NCBI RefSeq assembly: GCF_041261445.1
Contig: NZ_JBGCCU010000006.1
Location: 186,001 to 250,000, forward strand
Length of the DNA: 64,000 bases
Source: Catenulispora sp. EB89
GTDB taxonomy: Bacteria > Actinomycetota > Actinomycetes > Streptomycetales > Catenulisporaceae
Direction: 5' to 3'
The notes below the pieces were generated by a model. The model made no database searches, was not told the DNA's origin, and was given only the letters and a program-made list of their open reading frames with translations. Every line of letters starts with the position of its first letter. Position 1 is the first letter of the stretch. Both the position numbers and the translations under genes were made by a program. This document shows positions 3,058-50,911 of the stretch, one piece after another.

Positions 3058-3651
3058 GTGGATTTGATCATCATCCTGACCGTGTTCGGGATCGTCTTCC
3101 TGGCCGAGTTGCCGGACAAGACCGCTCTTGCCTCCCTGGTGCTCGGGACCCGCTATCGCCCTTCGCAGGTTTTCGTCGGCACGGCCGCGGCGTTCCTGGT
3201 GCACGTCGTGCTCGCCATCGCCGCCGGGAGCCTGCTGACGCTGCTGCCCGGACGGGTGCTGCACGCCGTGGTCGGCGCGTTGTTCCTGATGGGCGCCATC
3301 CTGCTGTTGCGGGGACGCCATGGGGAGGAGGAAGAAGAGGAGCACCTGGAGCTGCGCGGGGACAAGCCCGCGACGTTCCGGCGGGTCGCCGGCATGAGCT
3401 TCGGCGTGATCCTGGTCGCCGAGTTCGGGGACCTGACGCAGATCGTCACCGCCAACCTCGCCGCCAAGTACCACGACCCGATCTCGGTCGGCATCGGAGC
3501 CACGCTCGGACTGTGGGCGGTGGCCGGACTGGCGATCGTCGGCGGGCGCGGGCTGCTGAAGGTGGTGCCGATCACGGTGATCACGCGGATCGCGGCGGCG
3601 ATTATGGGAGTGCTGGCGGCTATCAGCCTGGTCGACGCGATCCGAGGCTGA
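3058..3651 (+). CDS. GDT1/TMEM165 (UPF0016) family manganese/cation transporter
   Basis: A 197-residue membrane protein with six predicted helices in two homologous halves. Each half carries the family signature: ELPDKT at residues 17-22 and EFGDLT at 122-127. These acidic motifs line the cation path in GDT1 proteins, which move Mn2+ or Ca2+ in exchange for protons. A Glu-rich cytoplasmic loop (EEEEEE) sits between the halves. GTG at 3058 is chosen because it begins exactly at the first helix and has AAGGA 10 bp upstream; a longer frame to 2947 would run through the riboswitch. The Mn2+ riboswitch in the leader supports a Mn2+ efflux role. Confidence 0.9.
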   Translation: MDLIIILTVFGIVFLAELPDKTALASLVLGTRYRPSQVFVGTAAAFLVHVVLAIAAGSLLTLLPGRVLHAVVGALFLMGAILLLRGRHGEEEEEEHLELRGDKPATFRRVAGMSFGVILVAEFGDLTQIVTANLAAKYHDPISVGIGATLGLWAVAGLAIVGGRGLLKVVPITVITRIAAAIMGVLAAISLVDAIRG

Positions 3652-7674: not shown

Positions 7675-9699
7675 ATGCGGACGACCGCCAAGTCTTCGTC
7701 GTCGTCTTCGGCACCTCGGCGGCGGAGCGCCGGCCCGGTGTTGGAGCGGGTATTGGGTCCGGAGGACTTGGCGGGGTTGGACTCCGTCGAGCTCGCCGCG
7801 CTGGCCGAGGAGATCCGCGGCTTCTTAATTGAGAAGGTGTGCGCGGTCGGCGGTCACCTCGGGGTGAACCTCGGCGTGGTGGAGCTCACCATCGCGCTGC
7901 ACCGGGCGTTCCGCTCGCCGCACGACGTGCTGCTGTTCGACACGGGGCACCAGAGCTACGTCCACAAGATCCTCACCGGCCGCGCGCCCGGATTCGACAC
8001 CCTGCGCCGGCGCGGCGGCCTGTCCGGCTACCCCTCGCGGACCGAGTCGGCGCACGACTGGATCGAGAACTCGCACGCCTCGACCGCGCTGAGCTACGCC
8101 GACGGCATCGCCAAGGCGTTCCAGCTGCGCGGCGAGCTGGCCGACGGCTCCGGTGACCCGGCCCGGCGGCACGTCGTGCCGGTGATCGGCGACGGCGCGA
8201 TGACCGGCGGGCTGGCCTGGGAGGGGCTGAACAACCTGGCCGGGGCGAGTGACCGGCCGGTGGTGATCGTGCTGAACGACAACGGCCGCGCCTACGCGCC
8301 GACGGTCGGCGGCATCGCGACCCACCTGGGCGGCCTGCGCGCGGAGCAGGGAGAGCACGGAGAGCGCCGAGACCGCGGAGAGCACCGAGACCACGACGAG
8401 GCCGCAGAGCACGCAGAACACGCAGAACACCGCGCCCGGCACCTGTTCGGCGACCTCGGCCTGGCCTACGTCGGCCCGGTCGACGGCCACGACATCACCG
8501 CCACCGAGCAGGCGCTGCGCGAGGCGGCGGCGCTCGGCCGGCCGTCGCTGGTGCACGTGATCACGACCAAGGGCCGCGGCTTCGCCCCCGCGGAGTGCGA
8601 CGAGGCGGACCGCATGCACGCGGTCGGCGTCGTGGACCCGCACACCGGGACGCCGACCAAGGCCCCGAAGAAGAGCTGGACCGAGGTGTTCGGCGAGCAG
8701 ATGGGCGCGATCGGAGCCGAGCGGCCCGACGTCGTGTGCGTCAGCGCGGCGATGGTGCTGCCGGTCGGCCTCGGCGAGTTCGCCGGCCGGTTCCCGGAGC
8801 GGATCTTCGACGTCGGCATCGCCGAGCAGCATGCGGTGTGCTCCTCGGCAGGGCTGGCCGCCGCCGGGCTGCACCCGGTGGTGTGCGTGTACTCGACGTT
8901 CCTGAACCGGGCCTTCGACCAGGTGGTCATGGACGTGGCCCTGCACAAGGCGGGCGTCACGTTCGTCCTGGACCGGGCCGGGGTCACCGGGCCGGACGGG
9001 GCCTCGCACCACGGGATGTGGGACAGCGCGATCCTCGGCGTGGTCCCGGGCCTGCGGCTGGCGGCGCCCCGCGACCCGGCGCGGCTGGCGGAACTGCTGC
9101 GGGAGGCGGTGGCCGTCGACGACGCGCCGACCGTGGTCCGCTTCCCGAAGGCCGAAGCGGGGCCGGATATCGAGGCGCACGCTCGGATGAACGGCGTCGA
9201 CATCCTGTACCGCGCGGCGGGACGGCCGTTGGACGTGCTGATCGTCGCGGCCGGCGTGACCGCGCGAACCTGCCTGGCCGCCGCCGAGGAACTGGACCGG
9301 CTGGGCATCGGGGCGACGGTGGTCGACCCGCGGTGGATCCTGCCGATCAACCCGCATCTGGCACATCTGGCCGACCGGCACCGGCTGGTGGTGACCGTCG
9401 AGGACAGTGTGCGCAGCGGCGGGATGGGGACGGCGTTGGCGCAGGCGTGCGCGGACGCGGAGTCGACGACGCCGGTCCGGGTGATGGGACTCCCGCAGGA
9501 GTTCCTGGCGGCCGGCGGGCGCGAGGAGATTCTGGAGAGCGCGGGGATGGCGGTGCGGGACATCGTCGCGACGGTGGTCGACGGGCTGCGGGCCGGGCCT
9601 CGGGTCGGGCCTCGGATCAGCGTGCCGGACAGCCTGGAGCTGATGGAGATCCCTGAGATTCCACGGGTTCCACAGATTCCCCAGGTTCCGCGCGGTTGA
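7675..9699 (+). CDS. dxs: 1-deoxy-D-xylulose-5-phosphate synthase
   Basis: A 674-residue ThDP-dependent enzyme that condenses pyruvate and glyceraldehyde 3-phosphate into DXP, the first step of the MEP isoprenoid pathway. Visible motifs are DTGHQSYVHK (H92), the ThDP/Mg2+ motif GDGAMTGG (about 172-179), and VGIAEQHAV with the catalytic Glu at about 384. The start is the ATG with AGGAG five bases upstream. Two oddities occur. Where other DXS enzymes have a conserved linker before VGPVDGHD, this one carries a run of Glu/His/Arg repeats (about residues 220-258). The C-terminus ends in an IP/VP-repeat tail. ispG follows 48 bp later, and the hopanoid genes lie nearby, so this copy probably feeds hopanoid synthesis. 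Confidence 0.96.
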   Translation: MRTTAKSSSSSSAPRRRSAGPVLERVLGPEDLAGLDSVELAALAEEIRGFLIEKVCAVGGHLGVNLGVVELTIALHRAFRSPHDVLLFDTGHQSYVHKILTGRAPGFDTLRRRGGLSGYPSRTESAHDWIENSHASTALSYADGIAKAFQLRGELADGSGDPARRHVVPVIGDGAMTGGLAWEGLNNLAGASDRPVVIVLNDNGRAYAPTVGGIATHLGGLRAEQGEHGERRDRGEHRDHDEAAEHAEHAEHRARHLFGDLGLAYVGPVDGHDITATEQALREAAALGRPSLVHVITTKGRGFAPAECDEADRMHAVGVVDPHTGTPTKAPKKSWTEVFGEQMGAIGAERPDVVCVSAAMVLPVGLGEFAGRFPERIFDVGIAEQHAVCSSAGLAAAGLHPVVCVYSTFLNRAFDQVVMDVALHKAGVTFVLDRAGVTGPDGASHHGMWDSAILGVVPGLRLAAPRDPARLAELLREAVAVDDAPTVVRFPKAEAGPDIEAHARMNGVDILYRAAGRPLDVLIVAAGVTARTCLAAAEELDRLGIGATVVDPRWILPINPHLAHLADRHRLVVTVEDSVRSGGMGTALAQACADAESTTPVRVMGLPQEFLAAGGREEILESAGMAVRDIVATVVDGLRAGPRVGPRISVPDSLELMEIPEIPRVPQIPQVPRG

Positions 9700-45733: not shown

Positions 45734-46672
45734 ATGCACACCGTCGCCATCATCGCCCTGGACGGCGTGATCCCCTTCGACCTCGCCACCCCGATCGAAG
45801 TCTTCAACCGGGCCCGCCTCCCCGACGGCCGCCCCGGCTACCAGGTCCGCGTCTGCGCCGAGCGTCCCGAGCTCGACGCCGGAAGCTTCGCCCTGCGCGC
45901 GCCCTACGGCCTGGAAGCCCTCCGCGACGCGGACACGATCATCGTCCCCGGTGTCGAGAAGCCGCTCACGCCGCTCCCCGCCGCCGTCCGCGACGCCCTG
46001 CGCTCCGCCGCGGCGAACGGCACGCGCATCGCCTCGATCTGCGTCGGCACCTTCGCCCTGGCCGCGACCGGCCTGCTCGACGGCCTGCGCGCCACCACGC
46101 ACTGGATCGCCGCCGAGCAGCTCGCCGCCGCCCATCCCGCGATCGAGGTCGACGCGCGCGTCCTGTACGTCGACAACGGCCAGTTCCTCACCTCCGCCGG
46201 CGCCGCCGCGGGCCTGGACCTGTGCCTGCACATGATCCGCAAGGACTACGGCTCCGCCGTCGCCGCCCACTGCGCGCGCCTGTCGGTGATGCCGCTGGAG
46301 CGCGAGGGCGGCCAGGCGCAGTTCATCGTCCAGGACCACACCCCGGCCCCGCAGGGCGGAACCCTGGAGCCGCTGCTCACCTGGCTCGACGCCAACCTCG
46401 GCCGCGACCTCGCCCTCCCCGACATCGCCGCCGAGGCCGGCCTGAGCACCCGCACCCTCATCCGCCGCTTCCGCGACCAGACCGGCACCACCCCGCTCCA
46501 GTGGCTGCACCGAGCCCGCATCCGCCGCGCGCAGCACCTGCTGGAGACCACGCAGCACTCGGTGGAGCGGATCGCGGCGCAGGTGGGGTTCGGGTCGGCG
46601 ACGGCTTTCCGGGACCGGTTCAAGCGGACGACGGGGATCAGCCCGAACGCTTACCGGCGGACGTTCAGTTGA
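45734..46672 (+). CDS. GlxA-family regulator (DJ-1/PfpI domain plus AraC HTH)
   Basis: A 312-residue regulator. The class-I amidotransferase-like DJ-1/PfpI domain covers about 1-170, with the elbow Cys in ASICVGTFALAATGLLDG and the following ATTHW. The AraC double HTH covers about 215-310 (PDIAAEAGLSTRTLIRRF ... GFGSATAFRDRFK). Such proteins activate or repress amine, sugar or stress genes in response to unknown ligands. It is divergent from the two small membrane-protein genes. It converges within 6 bp on the next gene. Confidence 0.93.
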   Translation: MHTVAIIALDGVIPFDLATPIEVFNRARLPDGRPGYQVRVCAERPELDAGSFALRAPYGLEALRDADTIIVPGVEKPLTPLPAAVRDALRSAAANGTRIASICVGTFALAATGLLDGLRATTHWIAAEQLAAAHPAIEVDARVLYVDNGQFLTSAGAAAGLDLCLHMIRKDYGSAVAAHCARLSVMPLEREGGQAQFIVQDHTPAPQGGTLEPLLTWLDANLGRDLALPDIAAEAGLSTRTLIRRFRDQTGTTPLQWLHRARIRRAQHLLETTQHSVERIAAQVGFGSATAFRDRFKRTTGISPNAYRRTFS

Positions 46673-46678
46673 GGGGGG

Positions 46679-47614
46679 CTACAGCACCTCGGCCGCAGCC
46701 CACTCGCGGTGAAATATCCGCAGCGCCGACTCGAAGTACTCGTCGTACAGCACGATGCCTCCGCGCTCCTCCTCGTGGCGGATGGAAACGTAGGCGAACA
46801 CCCCGTCGACGATCCCGTCGTCGTTGAAACGCTCCCACAACACGGGCTCGCGGCGTTCGAGCAAGCTGATATCCAGATCATGGATGACGATGCAGACGGG
46901 CAGCTCTGTGCCGACGACGCGGAACTCGACACGTTCGCCGACCATGTCCGACGGAAGGTCCGCCCCGGTGAGCAGGTCACGATAGCCGCGGACGTAGGGT
47001 TCGAACCTGGCGCGAGTCCCGTGGAAGAGGTATTGGTAGGTGCGGCCGGCCAGGATGTTGCTGACGAAGACATCGAAGAAAGTGCCGCGACGGACTTCTC
47101 CCTCGGGGCCGAAGGCGAGGTCGGCGGGCGGCCTGCTGGTAGTCACCCGGGTGCGGTTCGCACACGCCTCGATCGGGAGCGCGTCCGCGTCGCTGAAGAA
47201 CTCCGGCGGACTGGCGGTCCGGGGGTCGTCCAACAACTCACGCGCGACCCGCTCGACCTGCTCGGAAAGCCGACGGTTGACTCGCACAATAAGGTCGCGC
47301 TGGCGCCCCTGGTAGGCATTGGACTCAGCCAGGGCCCGCATGACGTCGGCCCGCAGGTTGCCCGGGTCGGCTGTCGACGGCAGGTGCACTCGTTCGCCGA
47401 ACACCAGGTAGTCCAGGGTGACGTTGAAGAACGCAGCGATACTGACGAGGGCATGGAAGCTAGGGCGAATACGACCAGTCACGTAGTGCGAGACCGTCGT
47501 ACCGCTCACTCCAAGCGCCTTGGCGAGTTTTTTCTGAGTGACAGTCGTCTTCTCGCGGTCCAGCAACGTCCGCAGAATCTCCTCAAACTTTACCTCACGC
47601 TCAGTCACAACCAT
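46679..47614 (-). CDS. XRE-family regulator with large C-terminal domain
   Basis: A 311-residue protein. The HTH covers about 8-70 (VTQKKLAKALGVSGTTVSHYVTGRIRPS ... FFNVTLDYLVFGE). The remaining 240 residues form a separate domain with FFDVFVSNILAGRTYQYLFHGT and VCIVIHDLDISLLERREPVLWE, perhaps a ligand-sensing fold I do not recognise. GGGAGG precedes the ATG. Third codon positions are clearly less GC-rich than in neighbours (for example AAGTTT, ACTCAG, AAAAAA near the start), which suggests recent transfer. It is divergent from the small membrane-protein gene and likely controls the adjacent radical SAM locus. Confidence 0.85.
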   Translation of the reverse strand: MVVTEREVKFEEILRTLLDREKTTVTQKKLAKALGVSGTTVSHYVTGRIRPSFHALVSIAAFFNVTLDYLVFGERVHLPSTADPGNLRADVMRALAESNAYQGRQRDLIVRVNRRLSEQVERVARELLDDPRTASPPEFFSDADALPIEACANRTRVTTSRPPADLAFGPEGEVRRGTFFDVFVSNILAGRTYQYLFHGTRARFEPYVRGYRDLLTGADLPSDMVGERVEFRVVGTELPVCIVIHDLDISLLERREPVLWERFNDDGIVDGVFAYVSIRHEEERGGIVLYDEYFESALRIFHREWAAAEVL

Positions 47615-47880
47615 TTCCGCTGCCTCCCGGCGCCGCTAGAGCCCTGACACTCGGATTGTCGATGATCCTGAATAGTGTGGATCTTATTGCTGAGACGAGC
47701 ACTGGTTACCCGCTTTCTGATACCGGGCAAAACCACTACAGCCGACAGTAAACCTCTGTCGGGCACAAGGCGGAAGAACGTCGCTTGAGACTCTTCGACC
47801 ATCCTGGGAAGAGCAGAGTCTTGATTTCAAATACACCTGGGAGCAGACACGTCGCCGTCACGGCGGGAGAAGGGACATTC
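47615..47880. other. AT-richer divergent promoter region with an interrupted inverted repeat
   Basis: The 266-bp gap is less GC-rich than most of the window. It holds the dyad AGACTCTTC (47788-47796) and GAAGAG-CAG-AGTCT (47808-47821), which could fold in RNA or bind a regulator. Possible promoters for both flanking genes lie here; I cannot set their -10/-35 boxes. Confidence 0.45.
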
Positions 47881-48366
47881 ATGCGAAACCACAACGCGCG
47901 GGAGATCCCATCGGCACCGGGCACTCAGCACGATCCGGTAGTGCGGGGCGCCAACGCGATCGACCGCTACTCACTGGCGCTCCAGCTGATCCAGGTGTAT
48001 CCGATCGTCCTGGCCGGGGTCGCGACCGTGTTGCCGCTCGAATGGCTCCGGATCCTGATCGCCGCGTTCGGCCTGATGGTCTGGACGGCCTTGGCAACCA
48101 TCCGCGAACGGAGCACCGAGTCCGCCAAACGGAACGACGCCGTACCCCTTCGGGCACCGGCGAAACAGGCGCCCACCGCGACGACGGCCGTGGAGACGGT
48201 TCAGGGAATTTGCGTCGACATCCGGCTGCATCCATACAGCGGTTGCGGGCACAAACCTGTGGGACGCAGGTCCGGGCACCGCATGAGCCCGTCCCGCGTA
48301 CACTGTGCTCTTCCCCGCGAAACGCCATCCACATCATCAGAGTTCTGCCAACGATCCGGAGCCTGA
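47881..48366 (+). CDS. Small membrane protein, unknown; C-terminal half doubtful
   Basis: The frame encodes 161 residues with GGGAGAAGGGA before the ATG. Residues about 30-75 form one or two membrane helices (LQLIQVYPIVLAGVATVLPLEWLRILIAAFGLMVW). A short charged stretch follows. From about residue 100 the sequence (CVDIRLHPYSGCGHK and onward) looks like non-coding translation, with poor third-position GC, so the true protein may be shorter through a frameshift or the gene may be decayed. It lies between the XRE regulator and the radical SAM gene, on the latter's strand. Confidence 0.6.
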   Translation: MRNHNAREIPSAPGTQHDPVVRGANAIDRYSLALQLIQVYPIVLAGVATVLPLEWLRILIAAFGLMVWTALATIRERSTESAKRNDAVPLRAPAKQAPTATTAVETVQGICVDIRLHPYSGCGHKPVGRRSGHRMSPSRVHCALPRETPSTSSEFCQRSGA

Positions 48367-48389
48367 GGACCGGCTCCGAACCCCACCCG

Positions 48390-48421
48390 CCTCAGCCTCG
48401 CGCGCAGGTGCGGGGCTGAGG
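48390..48421 (+). promoter_or_regulatory. Hairpin in front of the radical SAM gene
   Basis: CCTCAGCC (48390-48397) pairs with GGCTGAGG (48414-48421), extended by CGC/GCG inside. It lies 20 bp upstream of the Shine-Dalgarno of the radical SAM gene. It may be a terminator for the small membrane protein or an attenuator. Confidence 0.55.
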
Positions 48422-48452
48422 CGTGCTCTGTGCACTGTCACAGGGAGAACGA

Positions 48453-49508
48453 ATGGGCAACCAGGCCCTCATCGATCTGGTGAGCTCGTTCATGAAGATG
48501 GACCGGGCCAAAGTGGAGGCCATCGACCAGCAAGTCGGCGGACTGTTCGTCTCGCACTTCCTCCAACAGCGGATGAGAGAGAGCCTTGACGGTCGCGATT
48601 CGTTGACACGCGAAGCGCTCTCGCAGTTCGTGTTCGCGGGGCTCTACGCGAACGTCGACCCCACCAACGAGCGCTCGCACATCGTCAGCGGCTTCCCCGC
48701 CATCAATCACAGCTATCCGAACTCGGTCACCCTGTCGGTGACCAGAACGTGTCACGTCAAGTGCACCTACTGCTTCCGCGGCGACCTCATCACCCCGACG
48801 CAGACCTACGACGCCGAGGCGACCGCCGCCGGCATCGACTGGATCTCCGCACACGAGAACATCGCGACCGTCGTCGTGACCGGCGGAGACCCCTTCACCC
48901 TCCCGCCCCGCGAACTCGCCGGTGTCGTGCGGTCCCTGGCCGCGATCCCCACGGTCAACGAGATCCGCCTGGACACCAGAGTGCTGACGGTCAAGCCGTC
49001 GTCAGTGACGAACAGCCCAGAAGTCCTCGACGCCATGAGCGCGGCCGACGGCAAAGTCTGGCTCTACAGTCAGATCAACTCCGCCGCCGAGTTCCACCCC
49101 GTCGTGGACCAGGCCGTCGCCGCGGTCCGTCGGACCGGCGTCCCGATCGTCAACCAGGCCGTGATCCTCAAGAACGTCAACCACACCCCCGCCCTCATGC
49201 GGGACATGGTCTACGCCTGCGTCAAGCGGGGCATCCGTACCGACTACCTGTACCTCCTGGACGGCGGAAGCGAGATCGACTCCCCCTTCAACGTCACCGA
49301 TGACGAGATCCGCGCCGTGTTCCGGGAGTTGTGGAGTCCCGCGACCTCGGGGCTGGCCAAGCCGCGTGCCGTCTACGTCGATCCGCTGACCAACACCAAG
49401 GCGCAGCTGCTGGTCGCGCCCTGGGACGGTAACGAGAAATTCCTCGACGACTTCCTCCAGGCCCGCCGCGACAAGTTTGCGCGCGCAGCCGCCTCGACGA
49501 GGCCGTGA
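48453..49508 (+). CDS. KamA-like radical SAM protein of unknown reaction
   Basis: A 351-residue protein. The radical SAM motif is C100-x3-C104-x2-C107 in CHVKCTYCFRGD, followed by VTGGDPFTL, EIRLDTR and YSQINSAAEFHP, which match lysine 2,3-aminomutase (KamA/EpmB) proteins. The PLP-lysine motif GGGGK near the end of true aminomutases is not seen; the matching place reads YVDPLTNTKAQLL. So it is probably not a normal aminomutase. AGGGAGAA precedes the ATG. It forms a small locus with an XRE regulator and a membrane protein, all of lower GC than the surroundings. Confidence 0.85.
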   Translation: MGNQALIDLVSSFMKMDRAKVEAIDQQVGGLFVSHFLQQRMRESLDGRDSLTREALSQFVFAGLYANVDPTNERSHIVSGFPAINHSYPNSVTLSVTRTCHVKCTYCFRGDLITPTQTYDAEATAAGIDWISAHENIATVVVTGGDPFTLPPRELAGVVRSLAAIPTVNEIRLDTRVLTVKPSSVTNSPEVLDAMSAADGKVWLYSQINSAAEFHPVVDQAVAAVRRTGVPIVNQAVILKNVNHTPALMRDMVYACVKRGIRTDYLYLLDGGSEIDSPFNVTDDEIRAVFRELWSPATSGLAKPRAVYVDPLTNTKAQLLVAPWDGNEKFLDDFLQARRDKFARAAASTRP

Positions 49509-49617
49509 CGAGGCCCTGACGAGGCCGTGAACAAAGCCCGTGCCGAAGCCCTGACGAGGCCGCAACGAACCCCATGACCAGCCCCTGACCTCGCCCGACC
49601 TCCCCAAAACCGCACCC

Positions 49618-49645
49618 GACGCCGGCCGCACTCGCGGCCGGCGTC
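49618..49645 (+). terminator. Perfect hairpin after the radical SAM gene
   Basis: GACGCCGGCCGC pairs with GCGGCCGGCGTC over 12 bp with a 4-base loop. The 314-bp gap 49509-49822 otherwise holds several CTGACGAGGCC direct repeats (49500-49560) and a CTAGTGG direct repeat near 49756-49772, just upstream of the sugar-transport operon. No gene is seen in it. Confidence 0.8.
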
Positions 49646-49822
49646 GCCGCGTTCCAGGAGCGCCGCCCGCCGCTCCGCCCGCCCCGCAACCACCCACCCG
49701 CCTCCCGCGCCGCGCGTACAACCCTTATGGCCCTCTCCAACTGGCGCCCCACGCCTAGTGGATCTCTAGTGGGGAAGCAGTAGGCCGCCGAGCCCGGGGG
49801 CCGCGAGAGGAATGAGCGCACC

Positions 49823-50911
49823 ATGCAGCACCTGCGTCCGGCCCGCGCCGCCGGGATATTCTTCGCCGCGGCCGTGCTGGCCGCGACCGCCGCCGGCTGC
49901 GGCAGCGCCAAGAGCAGCAAGTCCAGTTCGTCCAGCGGCAGCGGGGGTGCGACCGGCTCGAACTCGAGCACGCGGATCGGCATCCTGCTGCCGGAGTCGA
50001 AGACGACCCGGTACGAGGCGTTCGACAAGCCGCTGCTGGAGGCCGAGCTGAACGCCAAGATGCCCGGCGTGCAGATCGACTACTACAACGCCGGCCAGGA
50101 CGCCACGGTCCAGCAGACCCAGGTCGACACCGCCCTGACCAAGGGTGACAAGGTCCTCATCCTGGACGCCGTGGACTCCAAGTCCATCCAGGCCTCCGTG
50201 CAGAAGGCGCATGACGCCGGGGTGAAGGTCGTCGCCTACGACCGGCTCGCGCAGGGCCCGGTCGACGCCTACGTCTCCTTCGACAACATGAAGGTCGGCG
50301 AGCTGCAGGGCACCGCCCTGCTGACCGCGCTGGGGTCGGACGCCGCGAGCAAGCAGATCGTCATGATCAACGGCTCCCCCACCGACCCGAACGCCGCGCA
50401 GTTCAAGGCCGGCGCGCAGTCGGTGCTGAACGGCAAGGTGAAGATCGGCAAGGAGTACGACACGCCGAACTGGGACCCGAACACCGCCAACCAGGAGATG
50501 TCCGGCGCGATCACGGCGCTCGGGGCCGCCAGCATCAACGGCGTCTACTCCGCCAACGACGGGATGGCCGCCGGTATCGCCACCGCGCTGAGCGCGAGCG
50601 GCCTGCACGTGCCGCTGACCGGCCAGGACGCCCAGCTCGACGCCATCCAGCGGATCGAGGCCGGCACCCAGACCATGACCATCTACAAGCCGTACAAGCC
50701 GGAAGCCACCACCGCGGCCGACGTGGCCGTGGAGTTCGCGCAGGGCAAGACCCCCGGCACGGACCTGCTGCCGGACAAGCAGACGTCGGGCTCCGGACAG
50801 TCGGTGCCCTCGAAGCTGATCACGCCGACCGTGGTCGACAAGAGCAACGTCTGCACCACCGTCGTCAAGGACGGCCTGTACACCGCCGCGCAGATCGGCA
50901 TCACCTGCTGA
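49823..50911 (+). CDS. xylF: Sugar ABC transporter substrate-binding lipoprotein (xylose type)
   Basis: A 362-residue lipoprotein. The signal peptide ends in a lipobox (AATAAGC, Cys about 27), followed by a Ser/Gly linker and a type I periplasmic-binding fold beginning IGILLPESKTTRYEAFDKP. This start and the NWDPNTANQEM and YSANDGMAAG segments match XylF proteins. It captures D-xylose or a related pentose outside the membrane. ATPase and permease genes follow, and xylA, xylB and a ROK regulator lie 8-10 kb away. A stable hairpin after it may raise its expression relative to the transporter genes. Confidence 0.9.
   Translation: MQHLRPARAAGIFFAAAVLAATAAGCGSAKSSKSSSSSGSGGATGSNSSTRIGILLPESKTTRYEAFDKPLLEAELNAKMPGVQIDYYNAGQDATVQQTQVDTALTKGDKVLILDAVDSKSIQASVQKAHDAGVKVVAYDRLAQGPVDAYVSFDNMKVGELQGTALLTALGSDAASKQIVMINGSPTDPNAAQFKAGAQSVLNGKVKIGKEYDTPNWDPNTANQEMSGAITALGAASINGVYSANDGMAAGIATALSASGLHVPLTGQDAQLDAIQRIEAGTQTMTIYKPYKPEATTAADVAVEFAQGKTPGTDLLPDKQTSGSGQSVPSKLITPTVVDKSNVCTTVVKDGLYTAAQIGITC

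Follow-up and report, generated by a model that had tools for sequence, protein, structure and literature searches.

A divergent KamA-type radical SAM protein with a putative pyridoxal phosphate lysine in a block foreign to its site in Catenulispora

The locus and its insertion site

The window analysed here is a 64-kb stretch of the 11.9 Mb genome of Catenulispora sp. EB89. Within it, a block of about 3 kb carries an XRE-type regulator gene, a small open reading frame (ORF) and a gene for a radical S-adenosylmethionine (SAM) protein related to KamA, the pyridoxal 5'-phosphate (PLP)-dependent lysine 2,3-aminomutase (Table 1). The regulator gene and the radical SAM gene are real. Their substitutions relative to Catenulispora rubra DSM 44948 (G001), the closest named relative for the locus, were distributed over the three codon positions as 12/3/62 and 7/2/46, respectively. 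The ratio of nonsynonymous to synonymous substitution rates (dN/dS) was 0.057 for residues 36–311 of the XRE protein. For the enzyme, the values of 0.056 against C. rubra and 0.23 against a third species indicated purifying selection. We placed the enzyme start at the ATG at 48453 and not at the GTG at 48423; the orthologue of the third species begins at the equivalent ATG.

Table 1. Features of the block and its flanks (positions in the window)
Feature	Position	Strand	Remarks
araC/DJ-1 type regulator (left flank)	45734..46672	+	orthologue in 7/10 genus genomes
Inserted block, ~3.0 kb	46677..49677		between the araC-like gene and the sugar-binding-protein gene; edges approximate
XRE-type regulator, 311 aa	46679..47614	-	helix-turn-helix (HTH) at ~residues 20–71, orphan tail at ~residues 81–311
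AT-richer divergent spacer	47615..47880		probable promoter/operator region
Small ORF, 161 aa	47881..48366	+	two hydrophobic stretches by eye, ~residues 30–75; coding status uncertain
15-bp stem-loop before the enzyme gene	48389..48422	+	possible terminator, attenuator or stabiliser
KamA-family radical SAM protein, 351 aa	48453..49508	+	cluster C100/C104/C107; PLP-column lysine K316
13-bp perfect inverted repeat downstream of the enzyme gene	49617..49646	+	probable terminator
Periplasmic binding protein (right flank)	49823..50911	+	in 9/10 genus genomes

Both flanking proteins were searched in 10 Catenulispora genomes, including that of the window (G000). The seven araC-like orthologues were 84–100% identical, and the remaining three genomes contained only paralogues (43–48%). 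In the window, the flanking genes are 3.15 kb apart. The site was empty in all five other genomes that had both flanking genes on a single contig, with flank-to-flank distances of 309 (G002), 374 (G004), 301 (G007), 285 (G008) and 334 bp (G009). Alignment of the window to these five genomes with blastn showed that the left homology stops at 46666–46676 and the right homology restarts at 49678–49693; the block edges are approximate because even the empty-site spacers cannot be aligned. Filled sites were found in the window and in C. rubra, the latter being visible from one side only. Its gene order (araC-like, XRE, small ORF, radical SAM) matches the window, its contig stops 88 bp past the enzyme gene, and its binding protein lies near the end of a different contig.

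Horizontal acquisition, as proposed in a first-pass annotation of this DNA, is thus supported by the empty site in the five informative relatives, and the conclusion that the block is foreign to its site is well supported. It does not follow from base composition. The annotation had described the G+C content at third codon positions (GC3) as lower than in all neighbours, which did not hold: GC3 was 0.81 for the XRE gene, 0.77 for the small ORF and 0.89 for the radical SAM gene, and ranged from 0.74 to 0.98 among 14 neighbours. Three of these (0.74, 0.79 and 0.80) were below the XRE gene, a fourth reached 0.82, and a fifth equalled the radical SAM gene at 0.89, most of the neighbours being higher. 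The synonymous codon score of the radical SAM gene (-0.09) was ordinary for the region. We rejected GC3 as proof of transfer, since resident neighbours are equally low. The divergent spacer was indeed AT-richer, with 47500–47999 being the lowest bin of the 42–54 kb profile (GC 0.572).

The simplest reading is that the block was inserted before the window species and C. rubra diverged; the alternative is loss elsewhere. Two separate acquisitions by these species were considered and rejected. The synonymous divergence (dS) from C. rubra was 0.20 for the radical SAM gene, 0.33 for the XRE gene and 0.06–0.10 for the GC3-rich flanks. The low-GC3 neighbour DUF3817 was also high (0.28), so the values of the block may simply track codon bias. 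A phage or defence origin was also rejected, as scans of viral contigs gave 51 and 95 pattern matches, none of which was confirmed. The enzyme relatives in phage records were all distant (19 records, none above 30% identity), and the XRE protein had a single partial match there (residues 2–112). In PADLOC, the XRE matches were confined to the HTH half, and the enzyme had a weak viperin match (E 0.0059). No integrase or transposase was recognised within the block.

The third orthologue, 73% identical to the enzyme, was found in the Catenulispora metagenome-assembled genome (MAG) Bin6.9 (G005). Its gene lies between a convergent esterase-like gene and tRNA-Gly(ccc), the tRNA 3' end being 166 bp from the start codon. 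The XRE protein had no match at E up to 0.001 in this MAG, which is 90% complete. The esterase region of another genome (G006) aligned with the MAG to the end of the esterase and not into the radical SAM gene; the corresponding contig of G003 stops too soon to be compared. Among 99 genomes, including that of the window, matches above 36% identity to the enzyme occurred only in the window genome, C. rubra and the MAG. Apart from the window genome, none were found in 396 genomes of the phylum (E limit 1e-16) or in 394 genomes of the class (E limit 1e-13). A scan of 84,980 species genomes with short peptide patterns, which detect close relatives only and may omit the window genome itself, returned the same two loci (C. 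rubra and the MAG).

Some further observations concern the tRNA. A partial duplicate of a tRNA 3' end typically marks integration at the tRNA gene. The MAG orthologue sits directly 3' of tRNA-Gly(ccc). In two other Catenulispora genomes, the 3' portion of tRNA-Gly(ccc) is partially duplicated at distances of 2.6 and 6.7 kb, with the two copies at 3213–3284 and 5867–5927 of L102 (G004:C1:10194000-10202000) and at 9570–9641 and 2854–2967 of L103 (G002:C24:84000-93745). Two contigs of the MAG share exactly 87 bp at their ends; this may be a mere assembly overlap, and we do not claim a duplicated attachment site.

Family assignment and the PLP-column lysine

The enzyme belongs to the Radical SAM superfamily, having the CxxxCxxC motif at C100, C104 and C107 and a PF04055 match of 37.8 bits (cut-off 29.5). 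This confirmed the KamA-type cluster motif and core seen in the first-pass annotation. The best NCBIfam match was TIGR03822 (E 1.3e-46; 159.2 bits, cut-off 396.25), and the KamA family model TIGR00238 followed at E 1.4e-42 (145.9 bits, cut-off 199.2). The equivalog models for lysine 2,3-aminomutase (TIGR03820; 116.1 bits, cut-off 525.4) and EpmB (TIGR03821; 120.9 bits, cut-off 369.3) also scored below their thresholds. Given its TIGR00238 score, the enzyme is treated as a divergent KamA relative and not as a member of that family. KamA (2a5h) was the sole match in a search of Protein Data Bank (PDB) sequences at E up to 0.001.

The lysine expected to bind PLP was located by alignment. K316 was invariant in all nine rows of a MAFFT alignment that included KamA, EpmB, two Rhizobium relatives, arginine 2,3-aminomutase and a Rhodococcus relative. 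The wider alignment comprised 62 rows, the three orthologues and 59 relatives from loci that the searches had yielded (hits L017, L024 and L026 were left out). It had Lys at K316, Gln at Q235 and Arg at R109 in 62/62 rows, with the three cysteines invariant. Comparison of the orthologue profile with the reference profile by hhalign (E 1.6e-41 over residues 61–319) placed YVDPLTNTK on IDAPGGGGK without gaps, so that TNTK faces GGGGK. The K316 column, which we take to be that of the PLP lysine of KamA (Lys337), also provides the lysine in the C-terminal part of the barrel that is typical of TIGR00238 proteins.

The first-pass annotation had reported that the PLP-lysine motif GGGGK is lacking. 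This stands for the glycine run, the orthologues having LTNTK or TSNTK (VDPLTNTK in the window enzyme), and fails for the lysine. EpmB (GEPSK) and the row of BlsG (IGK) also deviate, and the EpmB sequence indicates that GGGG is not required in the family. The further step, that no PLP lysine means a different reaction, loses its premise through the alignment with a conserved PLP-column lysine, an outcome that the annotation had itself named as contrary to its view. At the sequence level, the protein is shown to be a divergent KamA-type radical SAM protein that keeps the PLP-column lysine. The likeliest reading is an aminomutase whose pocket has changed, not an enzyme without PLP.

A changed substrate or reaction is possible on other grounds, namely D264, Q207, S210 and T315. 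With the 59 other rows as reference, 33 columns showed at least 85% conservation; in 11 of them, none of the three orthologues had the majority residue. These include Asp264 for Tyr (59/59 of the others), Gln207 for His (53/59), Ser210 for His (56/59) and Thr315 for Gly (58/59), together with Pro to Thr at 263 and Tyr to Trp at 130. Where all 59 other rows agreed, Y264 was the only position changed. Asp stands in the D270 column in the rows labelled KamA, EpmB and BlsG; Arg (31/62), Lys (5/62) and Glu (1/62) also occur there. We presume, from Asp293 of KamA and from the substitutions in glutamate 2,3-aminomutase, that Asp at this column suits a basic side chain. The Asp that D270 shares with the lysine and arginine enzymes hints at a basic amino acid substrate. 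Two more KamA-family proteins are encoded in the same genome (G000:C7:93336-94154 and G000:C12:87026-88105), both below the TIGR00238 cut-off. The former type is also represented among rows from other Catenulispora and carries Arg in the D270 column, where the latter type has Asp.

In the tree, the three orthologues formed one starred, isolated deep branch (stem length 4.5) without a close neighbour, and its exact placement is unsure because the branch is so long. An AlphaFold2 model built from the three sequences had a mean predicted local distance difference test (pLDDT) value of 55.7, which makes the geometry around K316 unusable. KamA 2a5h was the best PDB match of this weak model in Foldseek (E 2.5e-9) and the top match in VIA-align (Z 11.1, root mean square deviation 4.2, 222 aligned residues). 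The model supports a radical SAM barrel, and KamA in particular only weakly.

Compared with KamA/AblA (PDB 2a5h), the window enzyme shares the cysteine triad, R109, Q235, the PLP-column lysine, the radical SAM barrel and Asp at D270. It differs by an identity of only about 27–30%, the absence of the C-terminal extension, LTNT in place of GGGG, and the Tyr to Asp, His to Gln and His to Ser changes at 264, 207 and 210. EpmB (YjeK), which acts in the beta-lysylation of elongation factor P (EF-P), has a similar length, no C-terminal extension and a lysine without GGGG; PMC2821294 describes YjeK as lacking the C-terminal multimerisation domain. The window enzyme is, however, 27–30% identical to EpmB, falls on a separate branch and has no EpmA above the cut-off in its genome. 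The TIGR03822 type (lysine-2,3-aminomutase-like protein) has the same short form as the window enzyme. The protein of this name on a Rhizobium sp. Q54 plasmid adjoins EF-P and GenX genes, whereas the window enzyme does not.

The regulator, the small ORF and the leader

The XRE protein has a Cro/C1-type HTH (Pfam HTH_3, E 9.5e-12; 45.2 bits, cut-off 23), which it shares with XRE-family repressors. It differs from them in its tail of about 230 residues. The first-pass annotation had credited the regulator with an unknown 240-residue domain. Pfam gave nothing for the tail at E up to 10, and its matches in PHROGs (E 0.13), PDB sequences (best E 0.14) and plasmids (E 2) were at chance level. Among the 396 phylum genomes, it occurred in the window genome only, the C. 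rubra copy being known separately. The proposal of a dedicated regulator found less support. The divergent XRE/enzyme pair was observed in just two sister species. The enzyme gene of the third species lies at another place, with the tRNA and no XRE gene upstream, which leaves the dedicated role unproven. The location of the enzyme gene thus varies between species, and the gene does not require an XRE gene upstream of it. In C. rubra, the XRE gene (L042, ~1980–2911) has a one-base deletion corresponding to window position 47518, inside the HTH. This fits a recent mutation or a sequencing error, because the rest of the gene is strongly constrained. A structure model of the XRE protein from two sequences (mean pLDDT 35.6) was not used.

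The stretch 47657–47699 of the divergent spacer is identical in C. rubra, and no match to a sigma-70-type promoter was found in 47615–47880. For the membrane protein gene of the first-pass annotation, a hydrophobic ORF is present, but the substitutions in it are not codon-phased (22/17/18 against C. rubra). The dN/dS was 0.92 overall, 0.47 for residues 20–80 and 1.28 beyond residue 80. The ORF had no Pfam match, and an extended version gave a weak NCBIfam SepX/GlpR match (19.2 bits, cut-off 110). Its hydrophobic part may represent a genuine small membrane protein, which need not hold for the remainder.

The leader of the enzyme gene (48325–48452) contains two stem-loops and is the same as in C. 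rubra at 126/128 aligned bases, being more conserved than the downstream coding sequence (94.8%). The predicted RNA fold over 48325–48455 had a z value of -4.95, and none of 200 shuffled sequences was equally stable. A riboswitch was rejected: Rfam gave no match in 47580–48500 with E values of up to 5. No counterpart of the leader was seen by eye in the 166 bp between the tRNA and the start codon in the third species. Degenerate short repeats (TGACGAGGCC-like) extend from the end of the enzyme gene into the downstream spacer (49490–49573), near the right edge of the insertion.

Interpretation and rival explanations

We favour, with moderate confidence, an acquired block that encodes a KamA-type PLP aminomutase, probably for a basic substrate, and is probably repressed by the XRE protein. 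The filled and empty sites would reflect gain of the block in the ancestor that the window species shares with C. rubra. Its main product would be a short, EpmB-sized, KamA-type radical SAM enzyme. In this enzyme, the cysteine triad would hold a [4Fe-4S] cluster that cleaves SAM, and K316 would carry PLP as an aldimine. The deoxyadenosyl radical would then drive a 1,2-amino shift on a PLP-bound amino acid, probably a basic one, to give a beta-amino acid. This follows the mechanism shared by radical aminomutases, as described in PMC9105233. The divergent XRE protein would probably control the block as a repressor, sensing something through its orphan tail.

Several results weigh against this explanation. 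The enzyme reaches none of the KamA-family cut-offs in NCBIfam, and no partner from a biosynthetic pathway was recognised in the block. Confidence in the structure model is low, with residues 308–325, including K316, below a pLDDT of 50, and the second VIA-align match, lipoyl synthase (Z 10.4), is less than one Z unit behind KamA. In the hhalign comparison, D330, which we take to be the second substrate aspartate of KamA, aligns to V309, with D310 adjoining. The activity could also be altered, because a third of the well-conserved columns (11/33) differ, D264 among them. This last point, the isolated deep branch and the lack of a recognised aminomutase partner gene would all suit a KamA-fold enzyme that kept PLP and rebuilt its pocket for a different radical reaction, such as epimerisation, elimination, or C–C or C–S chemistry. 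We regard such an enzyme as possible but rather unlikely, given that only Y264 is changed among the otherwise invariant positions and that the lysine and arginine enzymes share the Asp at D270. An EpmB-like enzyme serving EF-P modification is very improbable. The similar length, the missing KamA C-terminal extension and the non-GGGG form are common to both proteins; the best TIGR00462 (EpmA/GenX) match in the window genome, however, stayed below the cut-off (191.4 against 286.9 bits) and lies in a 507-aa frame that would fit a lysyl-tRNA synthetase, which argues against EF-P modification. The low score of the EpmB model and the tree, in which the enzyme is not the sister of EpmB (itself a long branch), point the same way.

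The view of the first-pass annotation, a KamA relative independent of PLP, draws on the loss of the glycine-rich tract before the lysine. We consider it improbable in view of the unbroken conservation of K316 and Q235 and of EpmB, which also lacks the GGGG run. Regarding the origin of the block, an ancestral locus that was lost repeatedly and never inserted would account for the orthologue in the third Catenulispora genome. That copy sits in another neighbourhood, however, and the five empty sites contained no alignable remnant at E up to 0.001, which makes repeated loss quite doubtful.

What emerges is a divergent version of a known enzyme type, and the evidence from the alignments does not point to a cofactor-free one. 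PLP-dependent radical SAM aminomutases are few in number, and their substrate range is believed to depend on a handful of residues. We suggest, tentatively and as an unlikely outcome, that the three Catenulispora proteins may be the founders of a new KamA-fold subfamily. The cluster, SAM and PLP machinery would have been kept, and the pocket (D264, Q207, S210, LTNTK) rebuilt for an undescribed substrate or radical reaction. The gene would then be a movable cargo, in two species under a regulator with a novel sensing domain. An isolated branch in which the cofactor residues are kept and other conserved positions are changed offers a natural test of the residues that set the reaction, and it illustrates how a reading at the level of the motif (no GGGGK) can wrongly imply the loss of a cofactor.

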